This document shows, piece after piece, positions 41,314 through 63,565 of a DNA stretch of 64,000 nt; the first letter of the stretch is position 1, and the number at the start of each line of letters is the position of its first letter. The stretch covers positions 39,523,006 through 39,587,005 of the forward strand of contig CM068839.1 of the NCBI GenBank assembly GCA_028554795.2, in the 5' to 3' direction. A model generated the notes under the pieces. That model had not been told where the DNA came from. It did not search any database and worked only from the letters and a program-made list of their open reading frames with translations. The DNA is from Sinohyriopsis cumingii. Lineage: Eukaryota > Mollusca > Bivalvia > Unionida > Unionidae. The position numbers and the translations under genes are program-made.

Positions 41314-41630
41314 AGTAGTGAAGGGGGGCACTTTAGCCTCAATGGGAATTAGCATTAAAAACACCCTTGGGTCAGATTAGCCTCAATGGAAATTTAACAT
41401 GGAGAAAAATCGTGGGTCAGATTAGCCTCATTGGAAATTTAACATGGAGAAAAAATCGTGGGTCAGATTAGCCTCAATGGAAATTTAACATGGGAATAAA
41501 TTGTGGGTTAATATACGTACAAGGGGAATGGAACATGGGATTTTTAAAAAATTTTTTTTTAAAAAAGGGGTAGGCAATTCAAAGGCTATCTCTTTTCGAG
41601 AAATATGGGGGCCCTGAAAAGGGCCTTTGG
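41314..41630. repeat. Left terminal inverted repeat
   Basis: Matches the complement of 63248-63565 almost base for base, from AGTAGTGAAGGGGGG to GGGCCTTTGG. It contains three to four tandem 45-47 bp units (gtgggtcagattagcctcaa, tggaaatttaacatgg) and, at its inner end, a histone-type stem-loop with its downstream element. Confidence 0.95.
41610..41625 (-). terminator. Histone-type 3' stem-loop, site 1 (left TIR)
   Basis: Minus strand GGCCCTTTTCAGGGCC gives a 6-bp stem and TTTC loop, preceded by CCAAA and followed by CCCAT. The purine-rich CGAAAAGAGATA (41587-41598) lies about 12 nt further on. It lies 29 bp past the stop of the 122-codon gene. Confidence 0.8.
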
Positions 41631-41653
41631 GTTTTCTTCTTCTTCTTCTGCTT

Positions 41654-42022
41654 CTAATTTCTTCTTTTCCTCCACCAACTTCTTATTTTATCTCCAACAC
41701 TCTTTCTCTTCTTTTCTTTCTTTTTTTTCTCCTCCTCTTCTTCTTTCTTCCTCTTCTCATTTTCTTCTTCTTTTTCAATTTTTTCGTTCCATGTTCTTAT
41801 TCTTATCTTTTCCTCTTCATCCTCCTTCTCCTCCTTTATTTCCTTCATCACACCACTGATCATGTCCTTTGCTTTTCTTAAGTTGTTAATTTCCATTTTT
41901 ACTCTATGCGGACTATAAGAATAGTGGTCTTCAACGAGTCGTACGAGCATTTGTTCTATCATGCCCAAATTGTCAAGGACGTCTTGCAAGGATTGAAATT
42001 TATCCATGTGGTTTGAAGCCAT
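41654..42022 (-). CDS. Acidic/basic coiled-coil protein A
   Basis: 122 residues. The N-terminal third (MDKFQSLQDVLDNLGMIEQM) is helical, and residues 60-110 are almost only E and K, a long charged helix or coiled coil. The end is very basic (SWWRKRRN). I know no homologue. It is the first of three similar modules (promoter motif, charged coiled-coil gene, histone-type stem-loop) at this end of the element. A TATA-like TATAAG lies near 42063-42068. A regulatory or DNA/RNA-binding role is possible but unproven. Confidence 0.7.
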   Translation of the reverse strand: MASNHMDKFQSLQDVLDNLGMIEQMLVRLVEDHYSYSPHRVKMEINNLRKAKDMISGVMKEIKEEKEDEEEKIRIRTWNEKIEKEEENEKRKKEEEEEKKKKEKKRKSVGDKIRSWWRKRRN

Positions 42023-42074
42023 CTTCTATGTAGAATGGTTTGAACGACGAATACTGTGGGTTCTTATACTTAAA

Positions 42075-42099
42075 GCGCGTACGTGAAGGAAAACATCCC
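42075..42099 (-). promoter_or_regulatory. Shared upstream motif, copy 1
   Basis: Minus-strand GGGATGTTTTCCTTCACGTA then CGCGC. It lies just upstream of a TATA-like sequence for coiled-coil gene A. Other copies are at 42146, 45014 and 45873. Confidence 0.7.
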
Positions 42100-42145
42100 A
42101 CCTAAAAACATACAATGGATCTTACCTAGATCATGACCAAACAAC

Positions 42146-42170
42146 GCGCGGACGTGAAGGAAAACATCCC
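42146..42170 (-). promoter_or_regulatory. Shared upstream motif, copy 2
   Basis: Same motif (GGGATGTTTTCCTTCACGTC then CGCGC), 71 bp upstream of copy 1. The spacer ttacctagatcatgaccaaa also recurs near 45060, so a larger promoter block has been duplicated. Confidence 0.7.
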
Positions 42171-42403
42171 CTACTTTTTCATTTCATATAATATAACCCA
42201 AACTATAGTCTTCACATTTGCTAAGAAACAATAAAGAAACCCATAATCTACTATTCGCACAAACATACATTTACTCTGACAAACACAAACACACAAACAC
42301 ATACCCTCACACTATCTTAAAAAAGAGTTAGTGTTTATATACACACTACTCTACCTACACACATTGGCAAATTGATCGTTATTTCTTTTCTAGAGTATTG
42401 GGT

Positions 42404-42419
42404 AGCCCTGAAAAGGGCT
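42404..42419 (-). terminator. Histone-type 3' stem-loop, site 2
   Basis: Minus strand AGCCCTTTTCAGGGCT followed directly by ACCCA, then AGAAAAGAAAT (42381-42393) about 12 nt later. It lies 31 bp past the stop of gene B, the same spacing as site 1. Confidence 0.85.
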
Positions 42420-42450
42420 GTTGGTTTTTTTGAACTCCTGATGCACCTAT

Positions 42451-42759
42451 CTAATGGTTGCACCTTCCTGACCTGGCGCCACACACGCATCTTCTTCCCC
42501 AGTCTTCTTTCACCTTTCTTCTGGGGAGCGCAGAGGGAGGATGATTCGCTTCAATACCCCAATCCTCTGTCTCGGGAATATTGAACGACATCCTCTCTTC
42601 TCTTTTCTTTTCCTCTTCTTCCCTCTCTCTTCTCTCCTCCTCTTCTTTCTTCATTCTTGCTTCTTCTACGATAGCCTCCGCTGATAGTTCGTTTACTATG
42701 CGCCTGGCATATTCCAGGTGCATCTGGAGTTCTAGCAGCTTCACAATCCTTGTATTCAT
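42451..42759 (-). CDS. Charged coiled-coil protein B
   Basis: 102 residues. An N-terminal helix (MNTRIVKLLELQMHLEYARR) leads into an E/R/K-rich stretch (residues 33-58). The last 15 residues (RRCVCGARSGRCNH) look unlike the rest, so a frame break near the end is possible. It is similar in plan to proteins A and C but not clearly alignable. The native promoter (motif copy 3 and TATAAAT near 45001-45007) is now 2.2 kb upstream because a LINE was inserted in the leader. Confidence 0.6.
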   Translation of the reverse strand: MNTRIVKLLELQMHLEYARRIVNELSAEAIVEEARMKKEEEERREREEEEKKREERMSFNIPETEDWGIEANHPPSALPRRKVKEDWGRRCVCGARSGRCNH

Positions 42760-42788
42760 TGTCTTGCTGTTAACAGGTCGACGATGGG

Positions 42789-42796
42789 TCCAACTG
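42789..42796. repeat. LINE target duplication, 3' side (TCCAACTG)
   Basis: Identical to 44979-44986. The flanking sequence continues the leader of gene B, as judged by similarity to the leader of gene C (GTCGAC and CCAT phrases in both). Confidence 0.7.
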
Positions 42797-43120
42797 TTAG
42801 TTAGTTAGTTGGATTATAGTGGTTTTCGTTCTTTTGAACATGTACCACTTTTTTATTCACGCACTGCGTGATTTTTAATTACTCCTGGGGGAAGGAAAAG
42901 GAGCCTCATCCCCCAGGCTTTTATGTACTCAAAGAGTACTTTTTAATTTAGCCACTCAGGTGTAGGACTAACTAGTCCTTAACAACCTGACTGAAAGGCT
43001 AATAGACATGAGTGGGAATAGTCACACCACACACTCGTGTTTCTTAGTTGGATTGAAATGCCCCAGGTGTCAAACCAAGCAGTATGTGACTCCCGCCACG
43101 ATTGGTCGGCAGCGATGAGG

Positions 43121-43443
43121 TCACATTAGGACACCCGGTCTTGTGGCATTGACGAAGTGGCCCGCTTTTTTGATATCATCAATTGCCTTTCCCAGTCCGA
43201 TATTCCGGTAGACAGAGCCTTCCTTTTTTCCACTCTGTTTAGGTGGTGCAGGTTCATCAGCTTCATCGCCGCTGGATGATGATACTTCCAGGGCCGCTGC
43301 CAGCGTGGAAGTTTCAAATTCTTCAGTGTCGTCTGCCAACATTGCCTGGATTTGGCTGAGTATGTTAGTAGAAATAGCTGTGGAAGCTTGATTTAAAAGT
43401 TCAGCTAGATGTTGTTTAAGAGACAAGGAGACGGTTAGGAGTA
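43121..43443 (-). pseudogene. Unknown open segment in the 3' part of the LINE insertion
   Basis: About 107 codons open to a TGA. The first residues of the longer frame are only the A run. It reads KQHLAELLNQASTAISTN, then an acidic serine-rich part (SSSSGDEADEPAPP) and SVYRNIGLGKAIDDIKKAGHF. It is protein-like in composition but unrecognised. It may be the 3' end of a different transcript carried into this retrocopy. Confidence 0.4.
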
Positions 43444-43593
43444 TTTTTTTTTTTTTATTCATCAATTCCTTATTTATTTTAATTCCATATCTTATTGGTT
43501 TGGAATGAAAACTTGTTTTTATGGTTGTTTGTATGTTATTATGGAGTCCTGTTTTAATTAATTCCTATTTTCCTATTTTAATTTTTTGTGGCC

Positions 43594-43807
43594 TTAATTG
43601 GTTTTTATTATTCGGGGTATGAACGGCTGTGTCAGTTTGTGAACCTACGAGACCTAGCAGGCCGTCATAATTCCCAAACAGTGATTTTGTAATATTCGTC
43701 CTTAACTGGTTTTTATTATTCGGGCTATGAACGGCTGTGTCAGTCTGTGAACCCACGAGACGGAGCCGGCCGTCATAATTCCCAAACAGTGATTTGTTAT
43801 ATTTTTA
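43594..43807. repeat. 108-bp tandem repeat in LINE 3' region
   Basis: Two copies starting at 43594 and 43702, with tatgaacggctgtgtcagt and ccgtcataattcccaaacag in each, and the start of a third. Confidence 0.85.
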
Positions 43808-43828
43808 ACTGGTCTTTGATTTACTTTC

Positions 43829-44978
43829 TTAGATTTTTTTGAGTAGATTGGATTCGTGTATAAAACTTATGATATTTTTGAATGTTAGATTAATATTGGG
43901 GTTTGTGTTCATCAAGAATTCTGGGTATGTTGTAGGGGATCCAATTTTATGCTGTTTAACTTTAAACTTAGCCCTTTCTTTTTCAAGTGTATGGCAGTTG
44001 TTAAAAATATGCTCTATGTCTTCTGGGACCCTGCAGTGGTAGCAGTTAGGGTTATGTGGTTGTGGTCCTATGTACTGTCCGAAGCTGTTAGCCAGCTTGG
44101 TTTTGCCCGTGAGTATTCTATTTATGAATTTTTGTTCACTGCCTTTTGTTTTGGGTGGTTTCCTATTTCTACATACTTCTTTAATGATGGTTTTTAGTTT
44201 CCTGCCTTGAGTGCTTGTGTTCCATAATTCCTGCCATTTATTATCAATGAGGGTTTTAGATATGCTATTGAGTTCGCATATGCTATAATCTAGGTTGATG
44301 TGAGTGGTTTCGTTTAGTTTTTGTTTAGCTGTTATATCTGCCATATCGTTACCTGGTATGTTAATATGGGATGGTATCCACATAAATTCTACTTGTAAGT
44401 TATTATTGTTCAGTATTTTTAACAATAAATTGGTTTGCCTAAGATAGTTTTCTCTTGATTTGGTGTTGTTATTAAGTATTGAGTTTGTGACGCTTAGCGA
44501 GTCACTTATTATTACCGCTTGGGGTATTTTGTTCTCTTTGATCCATTTGAGTGCTTCAAGTATGGCCCAGAATTCAGCTGTGTATATAGAGCAGAGGTTA
44601 GGTAGTCTTCGTCCTACTTTAATGTTAAGTTCGGGGATTACGTAAGCTGCTGCTGTTCTGGGTGGTTCTGTAATTTTGGATCCATCAGTGTAAATCTTAA
44701 TGTAGTTGCAATATTTTGAGTTGATTTCTTCTGTACAGATTGTGTTTAGTTTGAGTTCCTGTTCGTTTTTATTGCCATATTTCATAATGAGGGTGTTAAC
44801 TGTGGGGTTGATATTTATCCATGGTTCTTTGTCATAGTGATTTGCAATTTCTGCTTGGAGTTTGTCTATAGGAAGTTGTTCAACTAATTGATGGACTAAT
44901 TTCCCTGCTGGTATGTTTTGTGATAATTTAGTTCTAAAAGGTATGTTGCATTTATTTATAGCTAGCCGGGTGGGGTGT
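43829..44978 (-). pseudogene. LINE ORF2 C-terminus: RNase H and cysteine/histidine motif
   Basis: The reading frame is open from 45115, but only the part from 44978 is LINE. The first 46 codons are read through Polinton promoter sequence by chance. The LINE part has an RNase H domain with the expected acidic residues (IYTDGSKI, YTAEFWAILEA, VIISDSLSV) and the HINIPGNDMAD motif, then a C-terminal CYHCRVPEDIEHIFNNC motif. RNase H in a LINE suggests the I/Nimb-like group. The endonuclease and reverse transcriptase domains are lost. Confidence 0.85.
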
Positions 44979-44986
44979 TCCAACTG
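44979..44986. repeat. LINE target duplication, 5' side (TCCAACTG)
   Basis: Pairs with 42789-42796. Confidence 0.7.
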
Positions 44987-45013
44987 ACGATTAGTTTTTA
45001 ATTTATACTGAAA

Positions 45014-45038
45014 GCGCGGACGTGAAGGAAAACATCCC
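45014..45038 (-). promoter_or_regulatory. Shared upstream motif, copy 3, with TATA
   Basis: Minus-strand GGGATGTTTTCCTTCACGTC then CGCGC, with TATAAAT just downstream (45001-45007). This should be the original promoter of gene B, now cut off by the LINE. Confidence 0.7.
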
Positions 45039-45119
45039 CCTAAAAACATAAAATTCATCTTACCTAGATCATGACCAAAAACAACAACAACAACGAACGG
45101 ACCTAAAAGAAACACTCAC

Positions 45120-45400
45120 TCACTTTTTATGCTACCCATCACTATTTTAAAATTTTTTCATAAATCACTTCAATAGACTATCCACATACGCAAAGCAATC
45201 CAATCCAACCCAAATATACACCTCAGACACCTCAAACACCAAAAAAGACATCATTTTAATCTACTATCCACACCAACTTACATGAGCTCTTACAAACACA
45301 AACACACAAACTCACAAACACATACCCTCACATTTTATAAAAAAGAGTTAGTGTTTATTTTCACACTACTCTACCTACACACATTGGCAAATTGATGGTT
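45120..45400. other. Spacer between modules, duplicated
   Basis: AC-rich spacer. 45290-45440 closely matches 42270-42420 (cacaaacacataccctcaca, cactactctacctacacaca, attggcaaattgat), so the modules arose by duplication. No gene seen. Confidence 0.7.
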
Positions 45401-45423
45401 ATTTCTTTTCTAGAGTATTGGGT

Positions 45424-45439
45424 AGCCCTGAAAAGGGCT
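45424..45439 (-). terminator. Histone-type 3' stem-loop, site 3
   Basis: Minus strand AGCCCTTTTCAGGGCT, then ACCCA, then AGAAAAGAAAT (45401-45413). It lies 29 bp past the stop of gene C. Confidence 0.85.
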
Positions 45440-45468
45440 GTTTTTTGTTTGCTATGGCATTCTTTTTT

Positions 45469-45831
45469 TTAGTTTCTAAGAATGCGATGTCCTCTGAGGA
45501 TAGACTTTCTGGCGATAGGTCTGCTTCTTCGGAAAGAGAAGAAGAACTCTTTGGTGTCGATACGGCAATCGACAAAGCCTCTGTTAGCTTCAGGTTGCTG
45601 CTGTTGCTGCTGTTTTTGAAGTCTATACTTCTCTGTCCATTCTTCTTTTTCCCTGTTCATTTTTTCTCTGAAGAGTTCTTCCATCAGGTCTTCAGTGATT
45701 TTTAACATTCTCACATTCTCTATTTCTTCTGGCTTTGGTATCAGACTGTGTCTGACCCTATGCAAATTCACGTAGGCTTCGTTGAGCTTAGCTAGTTTGG
45801 AGCACATCTTCTTAGGAGGATGAGTCGACAA
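45469..45831 (-). CDS. Coiled-coil protein C with a glutamine run
   Basis: 120 residues: MSTHPPKKMCSKLAKLNEAY start, then a helical E/K/R-rich middle (KITEDLMEELFREKMNREKE), a run of seven Gln, and a basic C-terminus (RRSRPIARKSILRGHR). No known homologue. Its leader shares GTCGAC/CCAT phrases with gene B, and its promoter carries motif copy 4. Confidence 0.7.
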   Translation of the reverse strand: MSTHPPKKMCSKLAKLNEAYVNLHRVRHSLIPKPEEIENVRMLKITEDLMEELFREKMNREKEEWTEKYRLQKQQQQQQPEANRGFVDCRIDTKEFFFSFRRSRPIARKSILRGHRILRN

Positions 45832-45872
45832 TGGATGGTTAGACTGGAAACAACCCGGTTCTTAAAGTCAAA

Positions 45873-45897
45873 GCGCGGACGTGAAGGAAAACATCCC
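45873..45897 (-). promoter_or_regulatory. Shared upstream motif, copy 4
   Basis: Same minus-strand motif (GGGATGTTTTCCTTCACGTC then CGCGC), about 42 bp upstream of the start codon of gene C. TTTAAG stands where other copies have TATAA. Confidence 0.7.
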
Positions 45898-46026
45898 CCA
45901 CACGGTTTTCGAGTCGCAACGTTCAGTGAGTGTCATGAGAGGGATAGTAAGAAATGAAAGAGCATCAATCCAACATTCTTATAGCTAAACAAAAGACAAA
46001 GGCATTTTTTTCAAAACACAACATTT

Positions 46027-46146: not shown

Positions 46147-46707
46147 CTACTTTAAACAGGGCTGACAACGTTGTGAATGAAATTGTGATTTCCACTTTTG
46201 GAAATCATTAGGCCATTGATGGACACTACGTTTCCTAGCTTGAGACAAAAGATAAGCATAATGGTCACAAAACCATCGATCTACTTTCACATCATTTCTA
46301 GCAGAAGAACGAGGATCGAAATGAGTCACTAAATGTTCTAAGGAATAGCCCAGGCTGCGATGATGCAGAAAATACACACAGTACTGTCCACACACCAAGG
46401 AATCTGTGCCTTGTAATTTCACGTTATTGAATCGGGTAGTCTGAGCATTTCTTCTCATAAAGTCAATGATATCGTCTTCCAAAGGGGGCAATCCGTACGA
46501 TTTGAAATATTCCACACATCCTTCTTGAGGAAAGTAGACGGCTACCCAGTGGGTTGCTGGGAGATGACTGTCGTCCGTGTTGATCACGTAAGCTTGATGG
46601 TCTTTAGGTTTGCGATGAGGGAGTTCATCTTTAGCACAGACGACAGGATTCCAAGAAGCCGTATACGAACTGTGGTTCAAAAGATAATACAGTTCCCAGG
46701 TATCCAT
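46147..46707 (-). CDS. PRO: Adenain-like maturation cysteine protease
   Basis: 186 residues. The protease of Polintons and adintoviruses is related to adenovirus proteinase and is expected to cleave capsid precursors. The catalytic set is visible: His53 in ATHWVAVYF, Glu66 in CVEYFKS, Gln99 seven residues before Cys106 in SLVCGQYC, which is the adenain Gln-Cys spacing. Length is close to the adenovirus enzyme (about 200). It lies directly downstream of the capsid genes, 25 bp after the preceding frame, so it is probably a late gene. No frame damage. Confidence 0.92.
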   Translation of the reverse strand: MDTWELYYLLNHSSYTASWNPVVCAKDELPHRKPKDHQAYVINTDDSHLPATHWVAVYFPQEGCVEYFKSYGLPPLEDDIIDFMRRNAQTTRFNNVKLQGTDSLVCGQYCVYFLHHRSLGYSLEHLVTHFDPRSSARNDVKVDRWFCDHYAYLLSQARKRSVHQWPNDFQKWKSQFHSQRCQPCLK

Positions 46708-47223: not shown

Positions 47224-48537
47224 CTAATAGTCTAGAATGACTTCTCTCAAACTGTTGATTTCTATGGTATTATCAAATTCTGCATACAGGATGACGTTCA
47301 CTGTCTCTGGCAGAGGATTTGCAAACTGAAGTTCCACACGAATCTGGCCGGATTTTATAGGGTGGAAATGTCCCTCGTCGCTGCCTTGGTCTGGAGTGAA
47401 ATCGAAAGCCCACAAAGCATAGCCTCCTGCATAATCTTCGTACGTAATGCCGTGACTGGTGTTGGTTCCTAACTGACCCGTGGCTTCGTACAGGGACAAG
47501 TACGATCTCAAGTAATTGTTCTTGGTAAAGTCAGGTTCGAAAGGTCGGGTACACAAGGTCTTGCCATCGCGACTGACTTCGATTTTCTTCACGTTGAAGT
47601 GTTGAAAGTGGAAAGGATTTTCAGCGAAGGCTCCGTTGAAGGCTGCATTCGAGACCATACCAAGGATCAAACGTTTGGGTAACTGTCCTTGGAACAGATG
47701 ATCTTCGATCATGGAATGATGTCCAACGGGAATGGTGAACGTTTTCACTTCCACACGTCGTATGGGATACTTGGCGGTCGTTCTGCTCAACGTCTGACTG
47801 ATGTCGTTTCCCACTTTAGGTAACACTTCCACGCGTCGTACGTAAAGTTTGGCCTCCTCGATTTGGCTTTTAGGATTGCCAGTCTTAGTAGCAGTTTCAT
47901 CAGCCAACAAATGGAAAGTGGCACTGCTGCGATTCAGTCTCAGGCGCACATTGACCCCGTTCAGCAAATATTTCTCTTGCAACCACATGTCCAAATGCAA
48001 ACGATCCATCAGTTCTAAACTCTTTTTACCTATGATTCTGCTTCGTCTTTCCCCAAAGCCGTCATTGTCACCTGCGTCAGCTATCTTAAACTTGCCCGCT
48101 TCGTCAGCTTCCCATACCACACAAGCATTGAGATGGGTGTTCTTGGCATCTATTCCGTACGTCAAGAGATTTTCCAGGTAGGCACGGTAAGGGTAAGTAT
48201 CCATGCTGCTGCTGACCAGTTTGTTATTCAAGTACAAGTCCACTCCACTAAACAAGGAATGCATGAAATTGTTGACGGGAGCTATATTCTCAGTGTCATC
48301 TACTGCACCATCATCCTTATCTAGAACTTTGACTTTCAAGTACAAGTAACTGCTATTCAGATCGATGTAATCTTCGGGCTGTCCTTTGATTTCAAACTCG
48401 ATGGGAGCTGAGGCTGTCAATGAGGAGACGGGATGAAATTCCACCCATTGAGATTCTTGCATCGTCATCATGGTGGGGGGCATGGCAAACAGATCCAGTT
48501 CCGTCTTGGAACAAGCGCAAGACTCTCGGTGCATCAT
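47224..48537 (-). CDS. MCP: Major capsid protein, double jelly roll
   Basis: 437 residues. The N-terminal part (QWVEFHPVSSLTASAPIEFE, DYIDLNSSYLYLKVKVLD, VNNFMHSLFSGVDLYLNNK, TYPYRAYLENLLTYG) carries the strand and loop pattern typical of Polinton/adintovirus hexon-like capsid proteins. The second jelly roll starts near residue 215 (AKYPIRRVEVKTFTIPVG). It should form the trimeric capsomer. It is intact, of normal length, and followed by the Cys/His protein and the protease. The start could be M1 or M2. Confidence 0.93.
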   Translation of the reverse strand: MMHRESCACSKTELDLFAMPPTMMTMQESQWVEFHPVSSLTASAPIEFEIKGQPEDYIDLNSSYLYLKVKVLDKDDGAVDDTENIAPVNNFMHSLFSGVDLYLNNKLVSSSMDTYPYRAYLENLLTYGIDAKNTHLNACVVWEADEAGKFKIADAGDNDGFGERRSRIIGKKSLELMDRLHLDMWLQEKYLLNGVNVRLRLNRSSATFHLLADETATKTGNPKSQIEEAKLYVRRVEVLPKVGNDISQTLSRTTAKYPIRRVEVKTFTIPVGHHSMIEDHLFQGQLPKRLILGMVSNAAFNGAFAENPFHFQHFNVKKIEVSRDGKTLCTRPFEPDFTKNNYLRSYLSLYEATGQLGTNTSHGITYEDYAGGYALWAFDFTPDQGSDEGHFHPIKSGQIRVELQFANPLPETVNVILYAEFDNTIEINSLREVILDY

Positions 48538-49910: not shown

Positions 49911-50323
49911 AATTCCAGAGTTCTGTGGCTGTCCGAGGGGTTAGTGGACGTCAGAGGCGTGTCTCCGCCCAAAATGGGGTTCTGGTTGTGGTTGGAGTGG
50001 TGACTGGCACTGGCACTGGACGCAAGGTTCCCGTTCGAGGAGAATTTCAGGGAGGGATTGGGAAGCAGGTAACCGATGCAACTGCTCAATAAAATGGTCC
50101 ACAATTGTTTGTCTCCTTGTTGCAAGCTTAGATTGGCGATGGCTGCCCCGATGACGCAATACACCACGAAGATTTGGCAGAAAAAGACGATTTGCGTTTT
50201 AGGCACACGTTCTCCACACCACACCCACAAGGGTTGTTTTTGTAAATCTTGCACAGAAGAACTGGGTGAAGAAGGAGTGGTCGACGTAGCTGCGTCTGCT
50301 GTGTGAAATGGCATGATGGTCAC
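49907..50323 (-). CDS. Membrane protein with two transmembrane segments
   Basis: 138 residues. Hydrophobic segments lie at about 44-64 (QIVFFCQIFVVYCVIGAA) and 74-88 (LWTILLSSCIGYLLP), separated by a short polar loop with ANLSLQQGDK. The tail is rich in Ser and Asn. Such two-helix proteins are common in Polinton genomes and may act in virion membranes or exit; the role is unknown. It overlaps the penton start by 4 bp and the integrase stop by 4 bp. A TATA box (50331-50337) is embedded in the last integrase codons; Met4 (50314) would fit it better than Met1. Confidence 0.75.
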   Translation of the reverse strand: MTIMPFHTADAATSTTPSSPSSSVQDLQKQPLWVWCGERVPKTQIVFFCQIFVVYCVIGAAIANLSLQQGDKQLWTILLSSCIGYLLPNPSLKFSSNGNLASSASASHHSNHNQNPILGGDTPLTSTNPSDSHRTLEL

Positions 50324-51432
50324 TTCTTCCTTTTATAGTCGATGACTTGCGAAGCGTCGATCCAAGAATCGAAATTGGGTTGATATCCTTTCCAACGTAC
50401 TTTGACTTCTTTGACACGTCGTTTGCCCACTTTACGGGTTCTGCGTTCGAGAATGCTTTCGATGTCGTACACGTCGTCTTCTTTTTTGGTGACACGTTGT
50501 AACTCGGGTAAATAAAACGTTCCTTTGAGTACTTCTCCGTTCATGTCTTCCAATTTATAGACGGCGGGATGACGGCCATGCACTCGTCCAGTGACACGAA
50601 ACAATTCGGTCGTCCAGTTAGGTAAGTAACCTTTGTCGAAAGTGCGTTTGGTTTTGCCAATGCGCACCCAATCTCCTACGGTCAACTCTCCACTTTTCTT
50701 GGGGACAGCCCTCGTCGGGGACGTACCAAACAGACGCTCAAACACTAGCACTTCGTTGTCGAGAGTCACGTCTTGCGGGGCACGTCCGATGCTTCGATGG
50801 TAAGATTGGTTGTACGCTTGCACCAGGTGCGGTAAGATGTCGATGTACTTCAGAGTGTGGTGATGCGTAAAATATTTCCACATGCGTTCTTTCAAAGTGC
50901 GTTGAAAACGTTCCACGATGCTGGCTTTGGTTTCGGGATTCTCGGTGGTAAAAAAATGAATGTCACGTTTCTTTAATTCTTTTTGGAAAGCTTGGTTCAG
51001 AAATTCGGTGCCTTTGTCCGTTTGCCATCGAAGAGGCTGACGACCGCTTTGTTTCAACACCCGTTGTAGGGCTCGCACTAACTCGCTGCTGGATTTGGAA
51101 GTCAAGGGCACGACCCAGGCAAATTTGGAAAAGACGTCGATGACACAAAACAAATATTTGTAGCCACGATTGTAGCTGGCCAAATGAGAGACATCGGCTA
51201 AATCGGCTTGCCATTGATGATCGATGCCTTCCACTCGGGTGCGACTTCTGGCAAACTTGCGTCGAATGGGTTTGTGTAAAGTGTAGGTAGCTTGTTCTTG
51301 TAACCATCGTTGAACTTGAGGTAAACGGAGACTTTTCAGTCGAGTTTTGGCAGCACGATACAATTTTTGAACTCCTGCGTAACCTGCAGGATGCGAGGGA
51401 TCGTAGTAAATGCTGGCTAAGACTTTTTCCAT
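50320..51432 (-). CDS. INT: Retroviral-type integrase with C-terminal chromodomain
   Basis: 370 residues from the ATG at 51432 (AAAAAATGG context). The frame stays open 35 codons further upstream but there overlaps the next gene and loses similarity. The N-terminal region contains IYYDPSHPAGYAGVQKLY. The catalytic core has Asp77 (QADLADV), Asp139 (QTDKGTEF) and Glu174 (KASIVERF), a D,D-34-E arrangement. A chromodomain follows at about 317-370 (DVYDIESILERRTRKVGK, VRWKGYQPNFDSWIDA). The enzyme should insert the element with a 6-bp duplication, as seen at its borders. The chromodomain may steer it to marked chromatin. Confidence 0.95.
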   Translation of the reverse strand: MEKVLASIYYDPSHPAGYAGVQKLYRAAKTRLKSLRLPQVQRWLQEQATYTLHKPIRRKFARSRTRVEGIDHQWQADLADVSHLASYNRGYKYLFCVIDVFSKFAWVVPLTSKSSSELVRALQRVLKQSGRQPLRWQTDKGTEFLNQAFQKELKKRDIHFFTTENPETKASIVERFQRTLKERMWKYFTHHHTLKYIDILPHLVQAYNQSYHRSIGRAPQDVTLDNEVLVFERLFGTSPTRAVPKKSGELTVGDWVRIGKTKRTFDKGYLPNWTTELFRVTGRVHGRHPAVYKLEDMNGEVLKGTFYLPELQRVTKKEDDVYDIESILERRTRKVGKRRVKEVKVRWKGYQPNFDSWIDASQVIDYKRKK

Positions 51433-53579: not shown

Positions 53580-54323
53580 TCATGGGGAGTGAAATGAAGT
53601 CGAGGACGGAGACGTGTACAGGACAGGCCCTCCGTCTTGGCACCAGTGGTGAAACAAGTGGGTACGAAATCGCAAATCCTCGGGAGTCGTAGGTTTCAAA
53701 TCGACGAGTAAATAGGCGTGTGGAGTTTGAGTGGCATCGTCGTACGCCTGAGTCAGCCAAGGCGTTCCTAACTGTTTGGCTAAGACTTGCACTTGCGATT
53801 TATCTCGAGGGCTTTTAAACAAGACCACGTAATGCGCATTGAGACTGATGGTGCGATGGGCTTTACTTTGTTGAAACAAATTTTGGGTGATGTAAACGAC
53901 ACTGGCATTACGGTGATGCCCTTTGCGCGTGAACCACAGTTTAATTTCTTCTTCATCTTCTCCTAACATGTCGTCGAAAATGACCAAATGGGTTAGACGG
54001 GAGTCAGAGACGATGCCATCGTCTTCTTTAGGAATGCCTTCCACAAACACGATGGAATCGCCTTGACTTTCTCGCAAGAGGCTGTACGCCGATTGCCACT
54101 CTTTGTAACACCACACGATTCGTTGAGGGGGCCGATCGATCAAATGATGTTTATGTTCGATCAAACGTTTGACGAATTCGGTTTTGCCTGAACCGCTAGG
54201 CCCAGCAATGAGCATGTTAAAGGGATGGCGAAGATACAAAGCCTCCCAACTGGCACGATCTAAGTGTTCGTCGATGACTTTGACAGTAGAGGAAGAGGGA
54301 GCAGAGACAGCAGAGGTAGCCAT
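53580..54323 (-). CDS. ATP: FtsK/HerA-type genome packaging ATPase
   Basis: 247 residues when started at Met 54323. The longer frame (from 54362) would begin only a few bases from the TATA box at 54371-54378, so the second Met is preferred. Walker A GPSGSGKT is at residues 41-48, Walker B HLVIFDD ends at 117-118, and a sensor-like VVYITQNLF follows. This is the A32/FtsK-type ATPase of Polintons, adintoviruses and related double-jelly-roll viruses, which pumps DNA into capsids. Intact. Confidence 0.93.
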   Translation of the reverse strand: MATSAVSAPSSSTVKVIDEHLDRASWEALYLRHPFNMLIAGPSGSGKTEFVKRLIEHKHHLIDRPPQRIVWCYKEWQSAYSLLRESQGDSIVFVEGIPKEDDGIVSDSRLTHLVIFDDMLGEDEEEIKLWFTRKGHHRNASVVYITQNLFQQSKAHRTISLNAHYVVLFKSPRDKSQVQVLAKQLGTPWLTQAYDDATQTPHAYLLVDLKPTTPEDLRFRTHLFHHWCQDGGPVLYTSPSSTSFHSP

Positions 54324-57268: not shown

Positions 57269-60200
57269 TTACAACCAATGTTTTATACCAACGTGTCCAT
57301 ACGGTAAGGTGAAATGATTGGGAAGTCGAACTCGCTTCTGGTACACGATTTGATCAACTTTTTCCAAAGGTCGACTGACGATGTGGTGAGTGGGTAAACG
57401 TACAATCTTGTTCGGTTGGTAAGTGGTCACTTTAAAGTTTCCATCCTCTCCCGATTGCAAGGCTTCTTTCAATACCCCAAAGTTGACCACTCGACTGGTA
57501 CGATAATTCAGAGTCAGTCCTTTCACTTTGCACGTCGTGTGCACTTCTCCTTGTTTGTCCCGGTATTCGTAGCCGTAATTTTTAGGACCGCCACTGACGA
57601 AACTTAGAATCTTGTCGTCGGGATGCTCGTCTGTCCAGGCTCCTAAACGGTCTCCTTCGATGTCAGGGTGATGTTGAATCGGGTGATGGATGTAAATGCA
57701 ACTGTCCGTGTCAAAGTACAGGACGCGTTCCCCTAACAGTTCTAAAGCTTCGTACAATTTTAAGCGAGCATGAGCTGTCACGTAAGCCGCAATGATGACA
57801 TTTCCAAAAGGGTCGTCTTGTACAAAGTCCAGATCTTCTTCGTAATTGACCAAGATTAAATTCTCTCGAACGACGTCCACGTGTTTCATGTATTTGGTTT
57901 TGTCGTGAATCATCTGGAAGTAGCGGGAAGGTTCTGTCAAATATTCCGTCTTGGGTAAACACGGTCGTTGTGCCATTGTACCCCACAAGCAATTTAACAT
58001 CACTTTGGCAAACGATCGCCTGCCTTCGTTTTTCTCGATGTGGTCTAAAGTGATGCCTTCTTGTTCGTAGTATTTCTCTTTGAATTTTATTTGGTCTTCG
58101 GGAGTGTGACACCAGGAAGGATAGCCGCTGGCTTCTTGCTTCAGTTTCAAAAAGGCATATACGTAGTCGGCGAAAATGCCTTTCTGAGTAGGGTCACCCT
58201 TGCGGTATTGTTGTGTCTTGGGAAAGTGGCAAATTTCGTACACTTCTAACAGTTGGTATCCCATGTCCAGAGCTTTGAACAATTCTACGCTGACCCAGGT
58301 TCCCGTCAAGGCCCGTTCTTCCTGGCTGTGCTGACAAGGTTGGTCTTGGTTGCACGTTTCGGCACAAGTACGGCACAAGGGAAACATCAGTTTGCCTTGA
58401 CAATGGTGAGGTAAGACGGGATGGTATATGTTCGTGGGAGGCAAAACTTTGCACTTGATCAAGCCTTCGTATTGTCGAATGTTGACCAGGTCGATGTGTT
58501 CCGTCAGCAATTGCGGGTGCCCTACAGGAAAGCGACAATATTTGCACACGTAGGGATACAGCGAACACACGTCCAAGTATTTGATTTCTTCTCCTTTCTC
58601 TTCGTCGGCTTGGTACAGCAAACAGGTGGCATTGGTCCTTCCTCCGTACAAACTATCCCTCGGGTTCAGCGGGTCCATGAACTGGTAACTTTCCACGAGG
58701 CGTTTAAACTCGGGATCGGTTTTCATACGGTGATCGTACTCGTGTTCCCACATTTCCACCACTTGGTATCCTTGCTGTTCTAACTTTAGGCGTCGCTGAC
58801 AAGTGTCCTGGTACAAGTCTTCCATGGTTCGTTGCAAAAACTGATTTTTAGTGCCACGGTCAGGGTAACAGACGGGACATCCGTGAAATAAGCAACCGTT
58901 AAACTCGTACACGATCTTGGGGTTTTCTAAGTCCCAGCCATCTACCGAATACGTTCCGATAGTCTTTTCGCCCCCTCCGTTGCGGGCATGCTGAATCCAC
59001 TTGTCTTCCTTGTCGCACAAGTAATGTAACCAACGTAGGGCTTTGACCGAGTATTGACGTTTGACATAGTGGGTCGTTTGAGGGCTGATGACAGCCACGG
59101 TGTTTTCAGGCATGAATCGTTGTCGATACACTAAGGAACACGCTTTGGCAATGGTGCAAGCTTCTTTCAAAGGATCGACCCCTCCGTGTTCCATGAACAG
59201 TTCTCGAAATTTTCCACAGCAACGTCGTAAAATGTCCACGTCGGAACGACAATACTTTAGCATTTCTTCCTGAAAGTCGAAAGGGTCCGAGGCGTGAATC
59301 TGGTACCAAGCGTAGAAAGCTTCTCGTTGTTCGGTACGCATGTTGTCGGGGTCGTAATAGTGAGCCTCAGGTAAATGGGGTAGAACGGCATGTTGATTGG
59401 CTTCCGTATTGAAAAAGTGTGGAAAGTACCCTTTAGCCATTTCTGTCATTCCAAACGTTTTAGGCATTCGACTCAAAGGCATGGCCAAATAGCTCATCGA
59501 ATCTTTAAACTGCACTTGTCCCACTCGCATGAAAATGATTTTGGCTCCGTTCAAAGTCACTTTAGGACGCTCGGTGCCTTGTTCCGTATAGTATCTGAGA
59601 AGAAACTGTCCATCGTATCCGGAGAAATTGTGAGCCATCACCGTGGCATGACGATGACAATCTCCGTAACGTTCGATGTCCTCTTGGCTCCACGTCTTGT
59701 CGACGGGGTCTAAGACCCATTGGGCAAAATCGGCTAACGTGTTGGGTCCCCGAAAGATTTTTTCACGCCCTCCGGGAATCTTGCTGCAGTGAGGGCAATG
59801 ACTGAAGATAGGTTCTTGAATGCACTTCTCGCACGCTGGATGAGCCACGCAGAAATTAGGAATGTGAATGCCGGTTTCTTGCATGCATTCGAAATCGAAA
59901 AAGATGAAATTGCCTTTCTTCTTGTGACCGTCCTCTTTCTCTGGTGGGGGTTGGTATTTTTGCACGTAACATTGGTGTTCCAAGTCCACGATGTGGTGAC
60001 AAATGTGACATTTTTTCTTTCCTAAACATACGTGTGCCTTGGTATTATTGGTACGTATGACTTGTTCACACGTAGAGCACAATCTCAGCAGTTGACAAGC
60101 GCATTTCTTCTGTGAACCTTGCGTTTTCAGATGTTGTTGGTAACAGGTAGGGCTGACAAACGTGCGCAGACAAGTTGAACAAGGCACTGGTTCTTCGCTC

Positions 60201-61309
60201 AGACAGGGTGAAGAGGCCAAACATCCTGTGCATTTCGATCCACAATGCTTGTGTTGCTCTCGATTGTTATAACCATGGTCACATTTCTCACAGTAATAAC
60301 TGTATCCCAGGAATCCGGTGATGCTGGTAATGGTATCGAAATGTTCATCGTGATAATAGACATGAATGTATTTTCCGTCCTTAAAGTCTTGGCCTCGAAA
60401 CAACAGAGGTCCGCGCACTTCTTGAGGGTGCACTTTCAAGGTGTAGCGTGGAGCTAGGGCATCTTGCAATTTTTGCATTTCAGGAATGCCACAGGGTGTG
60501 TCTTTGGACAGGCCAGCTTGTTGCAACAGGAGTTCTGCTTCGTTTCGTTGTTTGGCTCGGTCCGATTGTCGAATAGTTTTCCAGGCTCTTTTCCATTCTG
60601 CCGTGTCGTTCTTGTTGGCATAGGTTCGTCCCACCACGATGGCTCGGGCTAAGCACATCTGGTCTTGAGGGTTGTTAATTTGGACGAGACTCTTTTTGGT
60701 GCTGCGAAGGTCGTTCACCAATAACATCTTTTTTCGTCCTGTCCCTTGAGGAGGAGAGACGTGGGTCATGTCTAGTGTGGCTTTTCCATCGGTGATGTCA
60801 AACTGGTCATTAGATTGTTGTACGTGTTGAATCTTGTCCATGACTTTGGAAGCAGTCAATTCTGCAGGGGTGCTAAACTCGATCCAAACAGGGGATTTCA
60901 AACCGTCGTGTTGTATGGAAAGTCTCAAGCGATCGTCTTCTTTGGGTTGACATTGTCGCTTGAGTGCAGTGAGCAAAGAATCCCACACCCCAGTGATGAA
61001 CACTTCTGCTTTCTCTAACGGCACTTCAGCCTTGAAATCTTTAAACTTCACCGTGTATTTGTAAGCCGTAGTTCTAAATTTTCTAGAGGAGCGCTTTTCC
61101 GTCTCTCGAATAGAATAGTACTTTTCAGGGTTGACTAAGGGTGGTGAACTTGGTTTAGAGGGTTGGGATTCTGGTTCACTCATGTCCTCTTCAAAATCAC
61201 TGGCATGAATTTGTGCCAAGATTTCAGCCCTGGTACGAGGCGATAGATCACGTTTCTGCCTCTTACTTTCTTCTTCTTCTTTCTTCTCGAATGAATGGGA
61301 TCGTTTCAT
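57269..61309 (-). CDS. POLB: Protein-primed family B DNA polymerase
   Basis: 1346 residues, intact. A basic N-terminal extension is followed by a very Cys/His-rich region (about 338-447, several CxxC pairs) likely to bind zinc. The 3'-5' exonuclease has Asp472/Glu474 (FFDFECM), Asp566 (NFSGYDGQF) and Tyr686/Asp690 (YCRSD). A Polinton-type insert with YEFNGCLFHGCPVC (801-814) and MWEHEYDH follows. Polymerase motifs are DVCSLYP (913-919), KVMLNCLWG (1102-1110) and YFDTDS (1198-1203). The enzyme should replicate the linear element from its terminal repeats. It is divergently oriented to the zinc-knuckle gene with a shared 135-bp promoter region. Confidence 0.96.
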   Translation of the reverse strand: MKRSHSFEKKEEEESKRQKRDLSPRTRAEILAQIHASDFEEDMSEPESQPSKPSSPPLVNPEKYYSIRETEKRSSRKFRTTAYKYTVKFKDFKAEVPLEKAEVFITGVWDSLLTALKRQCQPKEDDRLRLSIQHDGLKSPVWIEFSTPAELTASKVMDKIQHVQQSNDQFDITDGKATLDMTHVSPPQGTGRKKMLLVNDLRSTKKSLVQINNPQDQMCLARAIVVGRTYANKNDTAEWKRAWKTIRQSDRAKQRNEAELLLQQAGLSKDTPCGIPEMQKLQDALAPRYTLKVHPQEVRGPLLFRGQDFKDGKYIHVYYHDEHFDTITSITGFLGYSYYCEKCDHGYNNREQHKHCGSKCTGCLASSPCLSEEPVPCSTCLRTFVSPTCYQQHLKTQGSQKKCACQLLRLCSTCEQVIRTNNTKAHVCLGKKKCHICHHIVDLEHQCYVQKYQPPPEKEDGHKKKGNFIFFDFECMQETGIHIPNFCVAHPACEKCIQEPIFSHCPHCSKIPGGREKIFRGPNTLADFAQWVLDPVDKTWSQEDIERYGDCHRHATVMAHNFSGYDGQFLLRYYTEQGTERPKVTLNGAKIIFMRVGQVQFKDSMSYLAMPLSRMPKTFGMTEMAKGYFPHFFNTEANQHAVLPHLPEAHYYDPDNMRTEQREAFYAWYQIHASDPFDFQEEMLKYCRSDVDILRRCCGKFRELFMEHGGVDPLKEACTIAKACSLVYRQRFMPENTVAVISPQTTHYVKRQYSVKALRWLHYLCDKEDKWIQHARNGGGEKTIGTYSVDGWDLENPKIVYEFNGCLFHGCPVCYPDRGTKNQFLQRTMEDLYQDTCQRRLKLEQQGYQVVEMWEHEYDHRMKTDPEFKRLVESYQFMDPLNPRDSLYGGRTNATCLLYQADEEKGEEIKYLDVCSLYPYVCKYCRFPVGHPQLLTEHIDLVNIRQYEGLIKCKVLPPTNIYHPVLPHHCQGKLMFPLCRTCAETCNQDQPCQHSQEERALTGTWVSVELFKALDMGYQLLEVYEICHFPKTQQYRKGDPTQKGIFADYVYAFLKLKQEASGYPSWCHTPEDQIKFKEKYYEQEGITLDHIEKNEGRRSFAKVMLNCLWGTMAQRPCLPKTEYLTEPSRYFQMIHDKTKYMKHVDVVRENLILVNYEEDLDFVQDDPFGNVIIAAYVTAHARLKLYEALELLGERVLYFDTDSCIYIHHPIQHHPDIEGDRLGAWTDEHPDDKILSFVSGGPKNYGYEYRDKQGEVHTTCKVKGLTLNYRTSRVVNFGVLKEALQSGEDGNFKVTTYQPNKIVRLPTHHIVSRPLEKVDQIVYQKRVRLPNHFTLPYGHVGIKHWL

Positions 61310-61356
61310 CTTGAAAGCAAAAAGTCAAATGACTCAAGTTCAAACACCATGAGCTA

Positions 61357-61390: not shown

Positions 61391-61443
61391 GGTGTGTGTC
61401 TTGTCCTTTCACTATTCATTTCACTCTCAAGCCGAGCACAACG

Positions 61444-61917
61444 ATGGAAGAGACTAACCAGATGGAACGTTTCGTCAGAGCTTTGCGAGGGGTCATTAGA
61501 AAATTCTCTTCAGACCAGCCTACGGACTACTCTCCCTCCTTTAGAGATAAAAGTCAAGATACTTGCTATATCTGTCAGAAGAAAGGGCATTGGTCTTCAG
61601 AGTGTCCAGACCGTCAAAAAAGAACAAAAACAGGGACTAAAAAAGACAAAAGTCAAGATACCTGTTATTATTGTCAAGAAAAAGGACATTGGTCTCCAGA
61701 TTGCCCAAAAAAGAAACAAGAGGAATCAGAAGAAAAGAGGGATTCTTCAGAAGAAGAGAGGGATTCTTCGGAAGAAGAGAGGGATTCTTCAGAGCAAGAA
61801 GAGGAAGAAAAAAGACAATTCTATTTACAAGAGGCAAAGAAACAGGAGAAGAAGAAAAGTAGAAGGGAAGAAAATGAGGAAAAGACGGTGAAGAAATTCA
61901 AAAAACAAAGAGACTAA
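61444..61917 (+). CDS. Double CCHC zinc-knuckle protein with charged tail
   Basis: 157 residues from the first ATG in this frame (context ACAACGATGG). Two zinc knuckles lie at Cys41-Cys44-His49-Cys54 (CYICQKKGHWSSEC) and Cys74-Cys77-His82-Cys87 (CYYCQEKGHWSPDC), nearly copies of each other. An acidic repeat SSEEERD (three times) and a long E/K coiled coil follow. It probably binds single-stranded nucleic acid. It is one of only two plus-strand genes, opposite POLB. An AATAAA lies at 62003-62008. Confidence 0.85.
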   Translation: MEETNQMERFVRALRGVIRKFSSDQPTDYSPSFRDKSQDTCYICQKKGHWSSECPDRQKRTKTGTKKDKSQDTCYYCQEKGHWSPDCPKKKQEESEEKRDSSEEERDSSEEERDSSEQEEEEKRQFYLQEAKKQEKKKSRREENEEKTVKKFKKQRD

Positions 61918-62002
61918 AAAAGGAGAAAAGAAGAAATCAATGAACTTTTAATTAAAGTGTTATGTTGTGAATTGTGAATTGGATTGAAACAATGGATAAA
62001 AG

Positions 62003-62008
62003 AATAAA
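62003..62008 (+). terminator. AATAAA signal of the zinc-knuckle gene
   Basis: 86 bp past the stop codon, in an AT-rich spacer between two convergent genes. Confidence 0.6.
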
Positions 62009-62167
62009 TTAATGATAAAAGGTAAGTGTCTTTGAGTTTTGATTTTAAAATAAGAACGTACACTCACGCACTCATACACAGACACGTACTATAAGGGTAA
62101 AATGGGTGGGTTTTTTTATTGAGTTATTGGCAAATTGAAATTGCATTTCTTTTCGAGAAATGTGGGT

Positions 62168-62183
62168 GGCCCTGAAAAGGGCC
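62168..62183 (-). terminator. Histone-type 3' stem-loop, site 4
   Basis: Minus strand GGCCCTTTTCAGGGCC followed at once by ACCCA, then CGAAAAGAAAT (62145-62155) about 12 nt on. This is the closest match to the animal histone consensus of the five. It lies 27 bp past the stop of the coiled-coil gene. Confidence 0.88.
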
Positions 62184-62210
62184 TTTTTTCTTTATGGTGT
62201 AGGGGTGAGT

Positions 62211-62780
62211 TTAAGCAATCAACTTTAACTGCCTTATGCCTTTGCCACGGCCAAGGCCTACTTCTGAACTGCGTAATGTTGATGATGATTGGGTTGAAAT
62301 CACTAAGGGTGGTACGGTAGGCTTAGTCACAGGGTTGACGTGTTTAGCTCGGGAAGGTCGTATTCTCTTCGGTCGTAATAAAGAAGTCTGATACATTTGT
62401 TTCAGACTTCTTAACTCCGCTAAAATGTCCAACAGTACCGTGACCGTTTGATTTTCACCCTCTTGTTTCTTTGCTGCTACTTCTTCTTGCTGTTGTTGCT
62501 GTTGTTTTTTTCTTACCTCTTCTTCTTCTTGCTGTAGGAGAAAAGCTTGTTCCGCTTCCTTTTGTCGTTGTATAAATTTCTCCAATTCTTCTTTCTGTCT
62601 CTGTCTAAAATTCTCCACTTGCGGTAATGAAGAAGGTAACGAAGGTTCCGGAACAAATTCTTGCGAGGAGAGAAAATCCACAAAATCCCAATTCACCTCT
62701 TCTGAAAGTAAGTCCGGGTTCCCTTGGGCGGTCTCCCCTGTTGGTGCACCCCATTGGATCGTTTTCTGAGTTTCCGTCAT
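62211..62780 (-). CDS. Coiled-coil, glutamine-rich accessory protein D
   Basis: 189 residues. The N-terminal part is acidic and polar (SEEVNWDFVDFLSSQEFVPE), then a coiled coil (RQRQKEELEKFIQRQKEAEQ) with a Gln run, a short helix with VTVLLDILAELRSLKQM, and a basic tail (RPKRIRPSRAKH). The acidic-aromatic stretch could be an activation domain. Unrecognised. It shares with genes A-C the coiled-coil plan and the histone-type 3' end. TATATAG lies at 62829-62835, about 50 bp upstream. Confidence 0.7.
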   Translation of the reverse strand: MTETQKTIQWGAPTGETAQGNPDLLSEEVNWDFVDFLSSQEFVPEPSLPSSLPQVENFRQRQKEELEKFIQRQKEAEQAFLLQQEEEEVRKKQQQQQQEEVAAKKQEGENQTVTVLLDILAELRSLKQMYQTSLLRPKRIRPSRAKHVNPVTKPTVPPLVISTQSSSTLRSSEVGLGRGKGIRQLKLIA

Positions 62781-62828
62781 GTTGAATCACTGTCGCATAG
62801 ATTGACTGCACACAAGCGCTAGCGAATC

Positions 62829-62955
62829 TATATAGACTACGTGACGTCACAGACTGCTCTCTTCGGATTGGATGCGGGCTGACTGAATTTTGTAACGCGT
62901 GTTCGGATTGGTGAATGAACTCAATCCGTTTCAATCCTACCTCTGCCTATAAATA
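62829..62955. promoter_or_regulatory. Bidirectional promoter with CRE and CCAAT boxes
   Basis: It contains, in order, a minus-strand TATA (62829-62835), a perfect CRE palindrome TGACGTCA (62842-62849), two direct repeats TTCGGATTGG, which are inverted CCAAT boxes (about 62863-62872 and 62902-62911), and a plus-strand TATAAATA (62948-62955). It should drive gene D to the left and the small terminal gene to the right. CRE and CCAAT sites suggest response to host signalling or cell cycle; this is inference. Confidence 0.7.
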
Positions 62956-62999
62956 AGCGCAGTTCAGTGCATTGATTCACCTATTCTCGGAGCCTCGAC

Positions 63000-63241
63000 A
63001 TGTGGACCGACGTTGAATCTTCAACCCTTGTGTCAACAATGATGTTCAGGACGGACATGCTCATGTATGTCCGATCCAAGTGGACCGTTGTCCACAGGAC
63101 CAGCAGCAGCCTGTGGATAAGAAGAGTCTATATAGAGAGACAAGGTTGCCTCAAGAGGACTCTGATGTATGGCCCTGCTGTAAGACGAAGTTTGAGGACA
63201 AGAAGATGTCGCAAATGCCCTTTATGTTAAGGGCATATTAA
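63000..63241 (+). CDS. Small right-end gene, reading frame uncertain
   Basis: A transcript is suggested by TATAAATA about 50 bp upstream and a histone-type end at 63253. The first ATG (63000) opens 76 codons to 63230, starting MWTDVESSTLVSTMM and ending with a basic RSLRTRRCRKCPLC. The frame two bases later is open from 63017 to 63241 without an ATG and looks more protein-like (CPIQVDRCPQDQQQP, PCCKTKFEDKKM). A one-base frame change early in the gene, or an unseen exon, could explain this. No homologue recognised. Confidence 0.45.
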
Positions 63242-63247
63242 CATAAA

Positions 63248-63565
63248 CCAAAGGCCCTTTTCAGGGCCAGCCATATTTCTCGAAAAGAGATAGCCTTTGA
63301 ATTGCCTACCCCTTTTTTAAAATTTTTTTTTTTAAAAATCCCATGTTCCATTCCCCTTGTACGTATATTAACCCACAATTTATTCCCATGTTAAATTTCC
63401 ATTGAGGCTAATCTGACCCACGAATATTTCTCCATGTTAAATTTCCATTGAGGCTAATCTGACCCACGATTTTTCTCCATGTTAAATTTCCATTGAGGCT
63501 AATCTGACCCAAGGGTGTTTTTAATGCTAATTCCCATTGAGGCTAAAGTGCCCCCCTTCACTACT
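63248..63565. repeat. Right terminal inverted repeat
   Basis: Complement of 41314-41630 with only a few differences, mostly in an A/T run near 63316-63330 and in one tandem unit. The element ends ...CACTACT. Confidence 0.95.
63253..63268 (+). terminator. Histone-type 3' stem-loop, site 5 (right TIR)
   Basis: Plus strand GGCCCTTTTCAGGGCC preceded by CCAAA and followed by AGCCAT, then CGAAAAGAGATA (63281-63292). It is the mirror of site 1, since both are in the inverted repeats, and it follows the small plus-strand gene. Confidence 0.8.

Follow-up and report, generated by a model that had tools for sequence, protein, structure and literature searches.

A complete Polinton of 22,252 bp, located in a 64,000-nucleotide stretch of DNA from the bivalve Sinohyriopsis cumingii (contig CM068839.1 of assembly GCA_028554795.2, positions 39,523,006 to 39,587,005; the whole 64-kb stretch is hereafter the window), carries five 3' ends that appear to be of the type found on replication-dependent histone mRNAs. 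This assignment, made from the DNA sequence, is supported by a covariance model, by architecture, spacing and orientation, and by the pattern of conservation, and the genes that bear these ends (acc1 to acc5) are non-histone accessory genes of the element. It is a known RNA signal in a previously unknown place and use. The five sites (S1 to S5) consist of the following stem-loops and downstream purine elements, given with their matches to the Rfam family RF00032.

41610..41625, minus strand: S1 stem-loop GGCCCTTTTCAGGGCC, then CCCA; RF00032 at 41586-41630, 32.2 bits, E 7.7e-6 (below gathering score)
41591..41597, minus strand: S1 purine element GAAAAGA (U7-type), 12 nt past the stem
42404..42419, minus strand: S2 stem-loop AGCCCTTTTCAGGGCT, then ACCCA; RF00032 at 42379-42424, 31.7 bits, E 1.2e-5 (below gathering score)
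42384..42390, minus strand: S2 purine element GAAAAGA, 13 nt past the stem
45424..45439, minus strand: S3 stem-loop AGCCCTTTTCAGGGCT, then ACCCA; RF00032 at 45399-45444, 31.0 bits, E 2.3e-5 (below gathering score)
45404..45410, minus strand: S3 purine element GAAAAGA, 13 nt past the stem
62168..62183, minus strand: S4 stem-loop GGCCCTTTTCAGGGCC, then ACCCACA; RF00032 at 62144-62188, 41.3 bits, E 3.3e-9
62148..62154, minus strand: S4 purine element GAAAAGA, 13 nt past the stem
63253..63268, plus strand: S5 stem-loop GGCCCTTTTCAGGGCC, then AGCCA; RF00032 at 63248-63293 (plus strand), 35.6 bits, E 4.2e-7
63282..63288, plus strand: S5 purine element GAAAAGA, 13 nt past the stem

The matches were obtained with cmscan, using the RF00032 (Histone3) model with its gathering score of 34 bits. 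All five sites match the model (E <=2.3e-5), S4 and S5 above the gathering score, and there was no further Histone3 match at E<=1 within 41000-64000; the rest of the window contained none that reached the gathering score. The sense-strand order at each end is an A-rich flank, a 6-bp stem, a TTTC loop, one of ACCCA, AGCCA or CCCA, and GAAAAGA. The stem with its TTTC (UUUC) loop is present in 5/5, and RNA folding likewise yields a 6-bp stem with a 4-nt loop at every site, with z-scores of -2.2 to -4.2. Passages of PMC7026596 place histone cleavage 4-5 nt past the stem, and passages of PMC6303110 give ACCCA as the major and ACCCACA as the minor cleavage context; the putative CA cleavage site lies within ACCCA at three sites, AGCCA at one and CCCA at one. 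A preliminary description of this DNA had listed five hairpins, and all of its 16-mers were recovered precisely at their coordinates, each with an RF00032 match. Its statements that ACCCA directly follows the stem in three of five cases (the others being AGCCA at 63253 and CCCA at 41610), and that GAAAAGA lies about 12-13 nt downstream (it begins 12 or 13 nt past the stem in 5/5), were likewise borne out. The A-rich 5' flank that it ascribed to all sites is present at four of them by the rule applied here, which 42404 fails.

Each site follows one of five small open reading frames, which are as follows.

41654..42022, minus strand: acc1, 122 residues, Lys/Glu-rich, with modelled helices at residues 2-32 and 38-121
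42451..42759, minus strand: acc2, 102 residues, charged
45469..45807, minus strand: acc3, 112 residues, charged, with a basic C-terminus
62211..62780, minus strand: acc4, 189 residues, with a Gln/Glu-rich middle
63000..63230, plus strand: acc5, 76 residues counted from the first ATG downstream of the TATA box, reading frame uncertain

From stop codon to stem, the distance is 28, 31, 29, 27 and 22 nt for acc1 to acc5, respectively (11 nt if the alternative acc5 frame is taken), and all stem-loops are in sense with their genes, in agreement with the 22-31 bp and sense orientation given in the preliminary description.

A search of the window for the 16-mers with up to three mismatches gave on average 0.24 matches in shuffled sequence, and 0/100 shuffles contained five. 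The stem-loop followed by GAAAAGA at 9-16 nt gave 5 matches in the window, whereas 100 dinucleotide shuffles gave none, and a pattern for perfect 6-bp histone-type hairpins with five allowed loops retrieved only these five from both strands of the 64 kb. When hairpin, A-rich flank and purine element were required together, 4/5 sites qualified, with no occurrence in 500 dinucleotide shuffles of the element or in the window outside it. In prokaryote genomes, the stem-loop with GAAAAGA occurred in 4 stretches among 257 billion bases, all from bacterial metagenome-assembled genomes and three with perfect stems. A chance origin of the sites is ruled out by the shuffles and by this prokaryote background.

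The conservation of the ends is concentrated on the parts just described. In an alignment of S3, S4 and S5, 26/30 columns of the stem-loop and purine block are identical, against 16/57 of the other columns, and with all five ends aligned the corresponding values are 26/30 and 14/57. S1 and S5 are two copies within the terminal inverted repeats (TIRs), whose similarity stops at the A-rich flank of the stem-loop; S2 and S3 lie inside a 113-nt direct repeat of 95% identity, and S4 stands alone. At its foot, the stem is closed by G-C in three copies and by A-U in two, with both sides changed. As evidence for pairing, this double change, seen in few rows, is suggestive only.

In the mechanism that we propose, the Polinton would have acquired the 3' end of a replication-dependent histone mRNA, complete with stem-loop, CA cleavage site and U7-type downstream element, presumably by capture from a host histone gene. 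Duplication would then have spread this end, which five small intronless accessory genes at both ends of the element would now use. Host SLBP would bind the stem-loop on the nascent accessory transcript, the U7 small nuclear ribonucleoprotein (snRNP) would pair with the GAAAAGA block, and CPSF73 would cut 4-7 nt past the stem to release an mRNA that lacks poly(A). Synthesis, translation and stability of these messages would fall mainly in S phase, the time at which this protein-primed DNA element needs a replicating nucleus. With S1 and S5 in the TIRs, both outward-facing genes could terminate within the terminal repeats, and copying from one TIR to the other would keep the two ends alike.

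We consider it likely, with a probability of roughly 0.8, that host SLBP and U7 snRNP process the accessory transcripts to short poly(A)-less mRNAs, made and stable chiefly in S phase, because no part of the signal is missing, it is correctly placed in 5/5, and the conserved parts are those that SLBP and U7 need. The use of SLBP and U7, the lack of poly(A), the coupling to S phase and an 'early' timing are predictions read from the signal itself. Vertebrate U7 carries CUCUUUU, which pairs with a GAAAAGA-type element, and if processing by SLBP and U7 takes place, the 5' end of the host U7 is expected to be complementary to TCTCGAAAAGA. We also lean towards a broader proposal, in which a Polinton/adintovirus-like lineage would run a whole class of non-histone genes through the host histone-mRNA pathway, poly(A)-less, SLBP/U7-dependent and perhaps at histone locus bodies, with its accessory proteins timed to nuclear DNA replication. 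We know of no earlier natural non-histone use of that pathway.

The preliminary description had further claimed that the capsid-side genes carry AATAAA instead of a stem-loop, implying two classes of transcript. This contrast did not survive: AATAAA or ATTAAA is present within 250 nt after the stop codon in 3/18 core frames versus 2/5 stem-loop genes, and in 285/1762 random 250-nt stretches of the element. Because poly(A) signals do not separate the genes, the division into two transcript classes is carried by the stem-loops alone. What stands of the earlier interpretation is the presence of histone-type 3' ends on non-histone genes of a complete Polinton.

A Pfam search of acc1 to acc4 and both acc5 frames gave nothing above cut-off and no histone domain; acc1 has a weak, sub-threshold TAF4 match (19.6 bits, cut-off 33) in charge-rich sequence. 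An AlphaFold2 model of acc1, made from three rows, consists of two long helices and is not a histone fold (predicted local distance difference test, pLDDT, 87.5; predicted template modelling score 0.52). Histone products are thus rejected by Pfam for acc1-acc5 and by the one model for acc1, as far as these go. Compared with acc1, acc2 and acc3 show 35% and 33% identity, respectively, in a gappy alignment of low-complexity sequence that is weak evidence of kinship.

At the left end, acc1, acc2 and acc3 form tandem cassettes with a common promoter motif around GGGATGTTTTCCTTCACGTCCGCGCTTT, whose repeats were recognized as direct repeat D5 and by blastn (90-94% over 33-41 nt); duplication here took the promoter motif and the 3' end along together. 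The right-end acc4 and acc5 are divergently arranged, on the minus and plus strands, respectively. The upstream features are the following.

45862..45905, minus strand: promoter motif (GGGATGTTTTCCTTCACGTCCGCGCTTT) of acc3
45003..45046, minus strand: promoter motif (GGGATGTTTTCCTTCACGTCCGCGCTTT), by order that of acc2; TATAAA follows, and an insertion separates the motif from acc2
42064..42107, minus strand: promoter motif (GGGATGTTTTCCTTCACGTCCGCGCTTT) of acc1, with TATAAG downstream and a second copy at 42135-42178
42800-45000, minus strand: fragment of an RNase H-bearing retroelement (PF00075, 43829-45058) between the acc2-type promoter and acc2
62781..62999: intergenic region of 219 bp shared by acc4 and acc5, with one TATA box per direction, about 50 nt upstream of the respective ATG

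The shared region 62781-62999 also contains two CCAAT boxes and one TGACGTCA. The arrangement of acc4 and acc5 resembles that of divergent histone gene pairs, and the accessory genes are like histone genes in layout, with TATA boxes, short 5' leaders and no visible introns. The insertion between acc2 and its promoter motif contains tandem repeats at 43592-43795, and CAGTTGGA is found near both of its sides; since the RNase H retroelement frame and the repeats lie between them, acc2 has probably been severed from its promoter in this copy. The other acc5 frame (63017-63238, 74 codons) has no ATG at its start and a composition that is, by eye, more protein-like, and the acc5 gene may therefore be spliced or broken in this copy.

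Several observations weigh against processing by the histone pathway. Three of the five sites (S1, S2 and S3) miss the gathering score, by 1.8-3.0 bits. The sites are not independent and amount to only three lineages, because two are TIR copies and two belong to a 95% identical duplication. Controls for covariation are weak, with 51/500 shuffles reaching the observed covariation score and 336/500 the number of pairs changed on both sides. The ends also remain similar downstream of the purine block, as far as about +45 nt, and common descent therefore accounts for some of the conservation. No sister element was found in scans of IMG/VR, acc5 is without a clear frame, and with its acc5 frame and acc2 promoter this copy of the element is partly decayed. 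Finally, acc3 and acc4 have AATAAA 64 and 47 nt past the stem, which could potentially be used instead. Passages of PMC1924863 report poly(A) signals downstream of the hairpin in fly, worm and human histone genes as well; since histone genes have such signals, those of acc3 and acc4 neither confirm nor exclude histone-type processing.

Some of these points, namely the three lineages, the late AATAAA of two genes and the similarity beyond the functional core, would also fit a relic, i.e., the end of a captured histone gene that arrived by chance, was copied along with the TIR and the duplication, and has no role in processing, the transcripts being polyadenylated at a later AATAAA. We regard this as unlikely. 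A relic does not account for the way in which conservation centres on stem-loop and purine block, with flanks and linker having diverged, for stem pairing kept through change on both sides, or for sense orientation and a 22-31 nt distance kept in 5/5, and there is no AATAAA/ATTAAA within 250 nt in acc1, acc2 or acc5.

Processing by SLBP and U7 also explains the sites better than a DNA-level palindrome placed near the ends and inside the element for replication, recombination or integrase binding, whose likeness to histone ends would be superficial. Two of the five copies do lie inside the TIRs, at the inner edge; the other three lie outside them, and a palindrome has no need of a TTTC loop, a CA cleavage site, a purine block held at a constant distance or placement in sense behind reading frames. 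The RF00032 match, moreover, spans the whole 46-nt model, and we consider such a palindrome quite improbable. It is harder still to credit that the small frames are inserted host DNA or other transposons instead of genes of the element, as the foreign insertions at the left end (RNase H frame 43829-45058; repeats D6) might suggest, given that S1 and S5 belong to the TIRs, that shared sequence links the remaining copies to these two, and that every site lies between the TIRs and target-site duplications.

The element itself was delimited and assigned on the basis of the following features.

41314..63565: complete Polinton, 22,252 bp, recognized by its TIRs, ATGCTG on both sides, PolB, rve and Chromo integrase, A32/FtsK-like ATPase and S273R-like protease
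41308..41313, plus strand: left copy of the target-site duplication ATGCTG, directly outside the left end
63566..63571, plus strand: right copy of ATGCTG, directly outside the right end
41314..41634, plus strand: left TIR, with the A-rich 5' flank of S1 as inner edge; the S1 stem-loop and purine element are inside it
63245..63565, minus strand: right TIR, terminating at S5 as the left TIR does at S1
57269..61309, minus strand: PolB, 1346 residues (PF03175, E 1.9e-39)
50320..51432, minus strand: integrase with chromodomain, 370 residues (PF00665, E 1.5e-14; PF00385, E 1.6e-6)
53580..54323, minus strand: packaging-type ATPase, 247 residues (PF04665 Pox_A32, E 1.3e-7)
46147..46707, minus strand: cysteine protease, 186 residues, weakly matching the solved protease S273R (E 0.0023), no Pfam match
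47224..48537, minus strand: probable major capsid protein, 437 residues, assigned from place and size only
56085-56726, minus strand: BIR-domain (inhibitor-of-apoptosis) protein of the Polinton core, E 9.6e-24
56786-57244, minus strand: BIR-domain (inhibitor-of-apoptosis) protein of the Polinton core, E 2.4e-14
61444-61917, plus strand: zinc-knuckle protein with two CCHC motifs (PF00098, E 5.9e-14), convergent with acc4

Long TIRs and a 6-bp target-site duplication were found, a protein-primed PolB, a retroviral-type integrase and an A32-like ATPase were recognized by Pfam matches above cut-off, and an adenain-type protease was counted as present by way of the weak PDB match (E 0.0023). The TIRs are 94% identical without gaps and 96.6% with gaps; they contain tandem repeats of about 45 bp, GGGTCAGATTAGCCTCAATGGAAATTTAACATGG (left TIR 41359-41538, plus the right TIR). 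The candidate for the double jelly-roll major capsid protein at 47224-48537 matched no Pfam family and no PDB sequence, and its AlphaFold2 model was unusable (pLDDT 36); 48975-49910, where a single jelly-roll minor capsid protein was looked for, had no Pfam match. Two adjacent genes at 55070-55588 and 55601-56056 on the minus strand form one duplicated family, with 86% DNA identity over 199 nt and near-identical N-termini, and the first of them has no Pfam match. The 3' end of the zinc-knuckle gene at 61444-61917 has ATTAAA and AATAAA and is without a stem-loop.

Outside the right end, a 44-nt piece at 63612-63655 is 84% like the Polinton terminus; it lies 46 nt from that end, faces the opposite way, and may be the terminus of another, related element located beyond the window. 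A repeat of about 290 bp is dispersed over the window at 6370-6687, 18669-18985, 31257-31544 and 38137-38401, its copies sharing 80-87% identity. To judge from a tRNA match in Rfam within one copy (6612-6684, minus strand), it is a tRNA-derived short interspersed element of the host. Self-comparison also revealed a tandem array at 3500-4663, with units of roughly 34-68 bp that are about 90% identical.

Relatives of the element were sought in IMG/VR. Single-protein queries with the capsid candidate, PolB and the ATPase gave no confirmed relative, and there were 0 matches to degenerate integrase and PolB motifs and 0 to AAAGGCYCTTTTCAGRGCCACCMA. The pattern TCTTTN{5,25} plus stem-loop had 3 matches, one with a perfect Watson-Crick stem and two imperfect, none of them with a Histone3 match at E<=0.1. 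A stem pattern allowing any loop had 37 matches, 7/37 with a perfect stem and 27/37 sharing one common loop; none of these 37 had a TTTC loop, a purine element or a Histone3 match that reached the gathering score. Of the contigs that gave any Rfam match, nearly all carry the Mu-gpT-DE RNA. We take these pattern matches for chance or phage sequence and not for histone-type ends. Because no Polinton was found in IMG/VR, the negative results there say little about Polintons.

The abstract of PMC6303110 and passages of PMC7026596 and PMC1924863 describe histone mRNAs as the only metazoan or eukaryotic mRNAs of the poly(A)-less kind. Among open-licence PMC papers, no report linked a Polinton with the histone stem-loop, SLBP or U7 small nuclear RNA, and the earlier suggestion that such ends were unreported in Polintons and adintoviruses accordingly met no precedent there.

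If the accessory genes are processed as proposed, they would break the histone-only rule for poly(A)-less mRNAs, show a way for a protein-primed DNA element to time its genes to S phase and evade regulation acting through poly(A), and allow the requirements of SLBP and U7 to be tested on a natural case. Their transcripts would be missed by poly(A)-selected RNA data; because the signals are short, existing genomes could be searched for many of them, as could RNA libraries prepared with no poly(A) selection. To our knowledge, almost nothing is otherwise known of Polinton gene regulation.

The Polinton sites share with the replication-dependent histone 3' ends of animals (SLBP/U7, RF00032) the 6-bp stem, UUUC loop, A-rich flank and ACCCA/CA, as well as GAAAAGA 12-13 nt past the stem, a short 3' untranslated region and the lack of visible introns. 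Unlike in animal histone genes, the signal stands on five non-histone genes of a mobile element, with two copies in its TIRs. In its TIRs, 6-bp duplication, PolB, rve integrase, A32-like ATPase, cysteine protease and 22-kb size, the element is like other Polinton/Maverick elements and adintoviruses, and it differs from the known ones in the histone-type ends of its accessory genes. Virus-encoded histones, such as the adomavirus 'Histoid' described in passages of PMC11071296, are likewise cases of a DNA virus taking from the host histone system; the adomavirus borrows the protein, whereas this Polinton appears to borrow the mRNA end, for products in which no histone domain was found.

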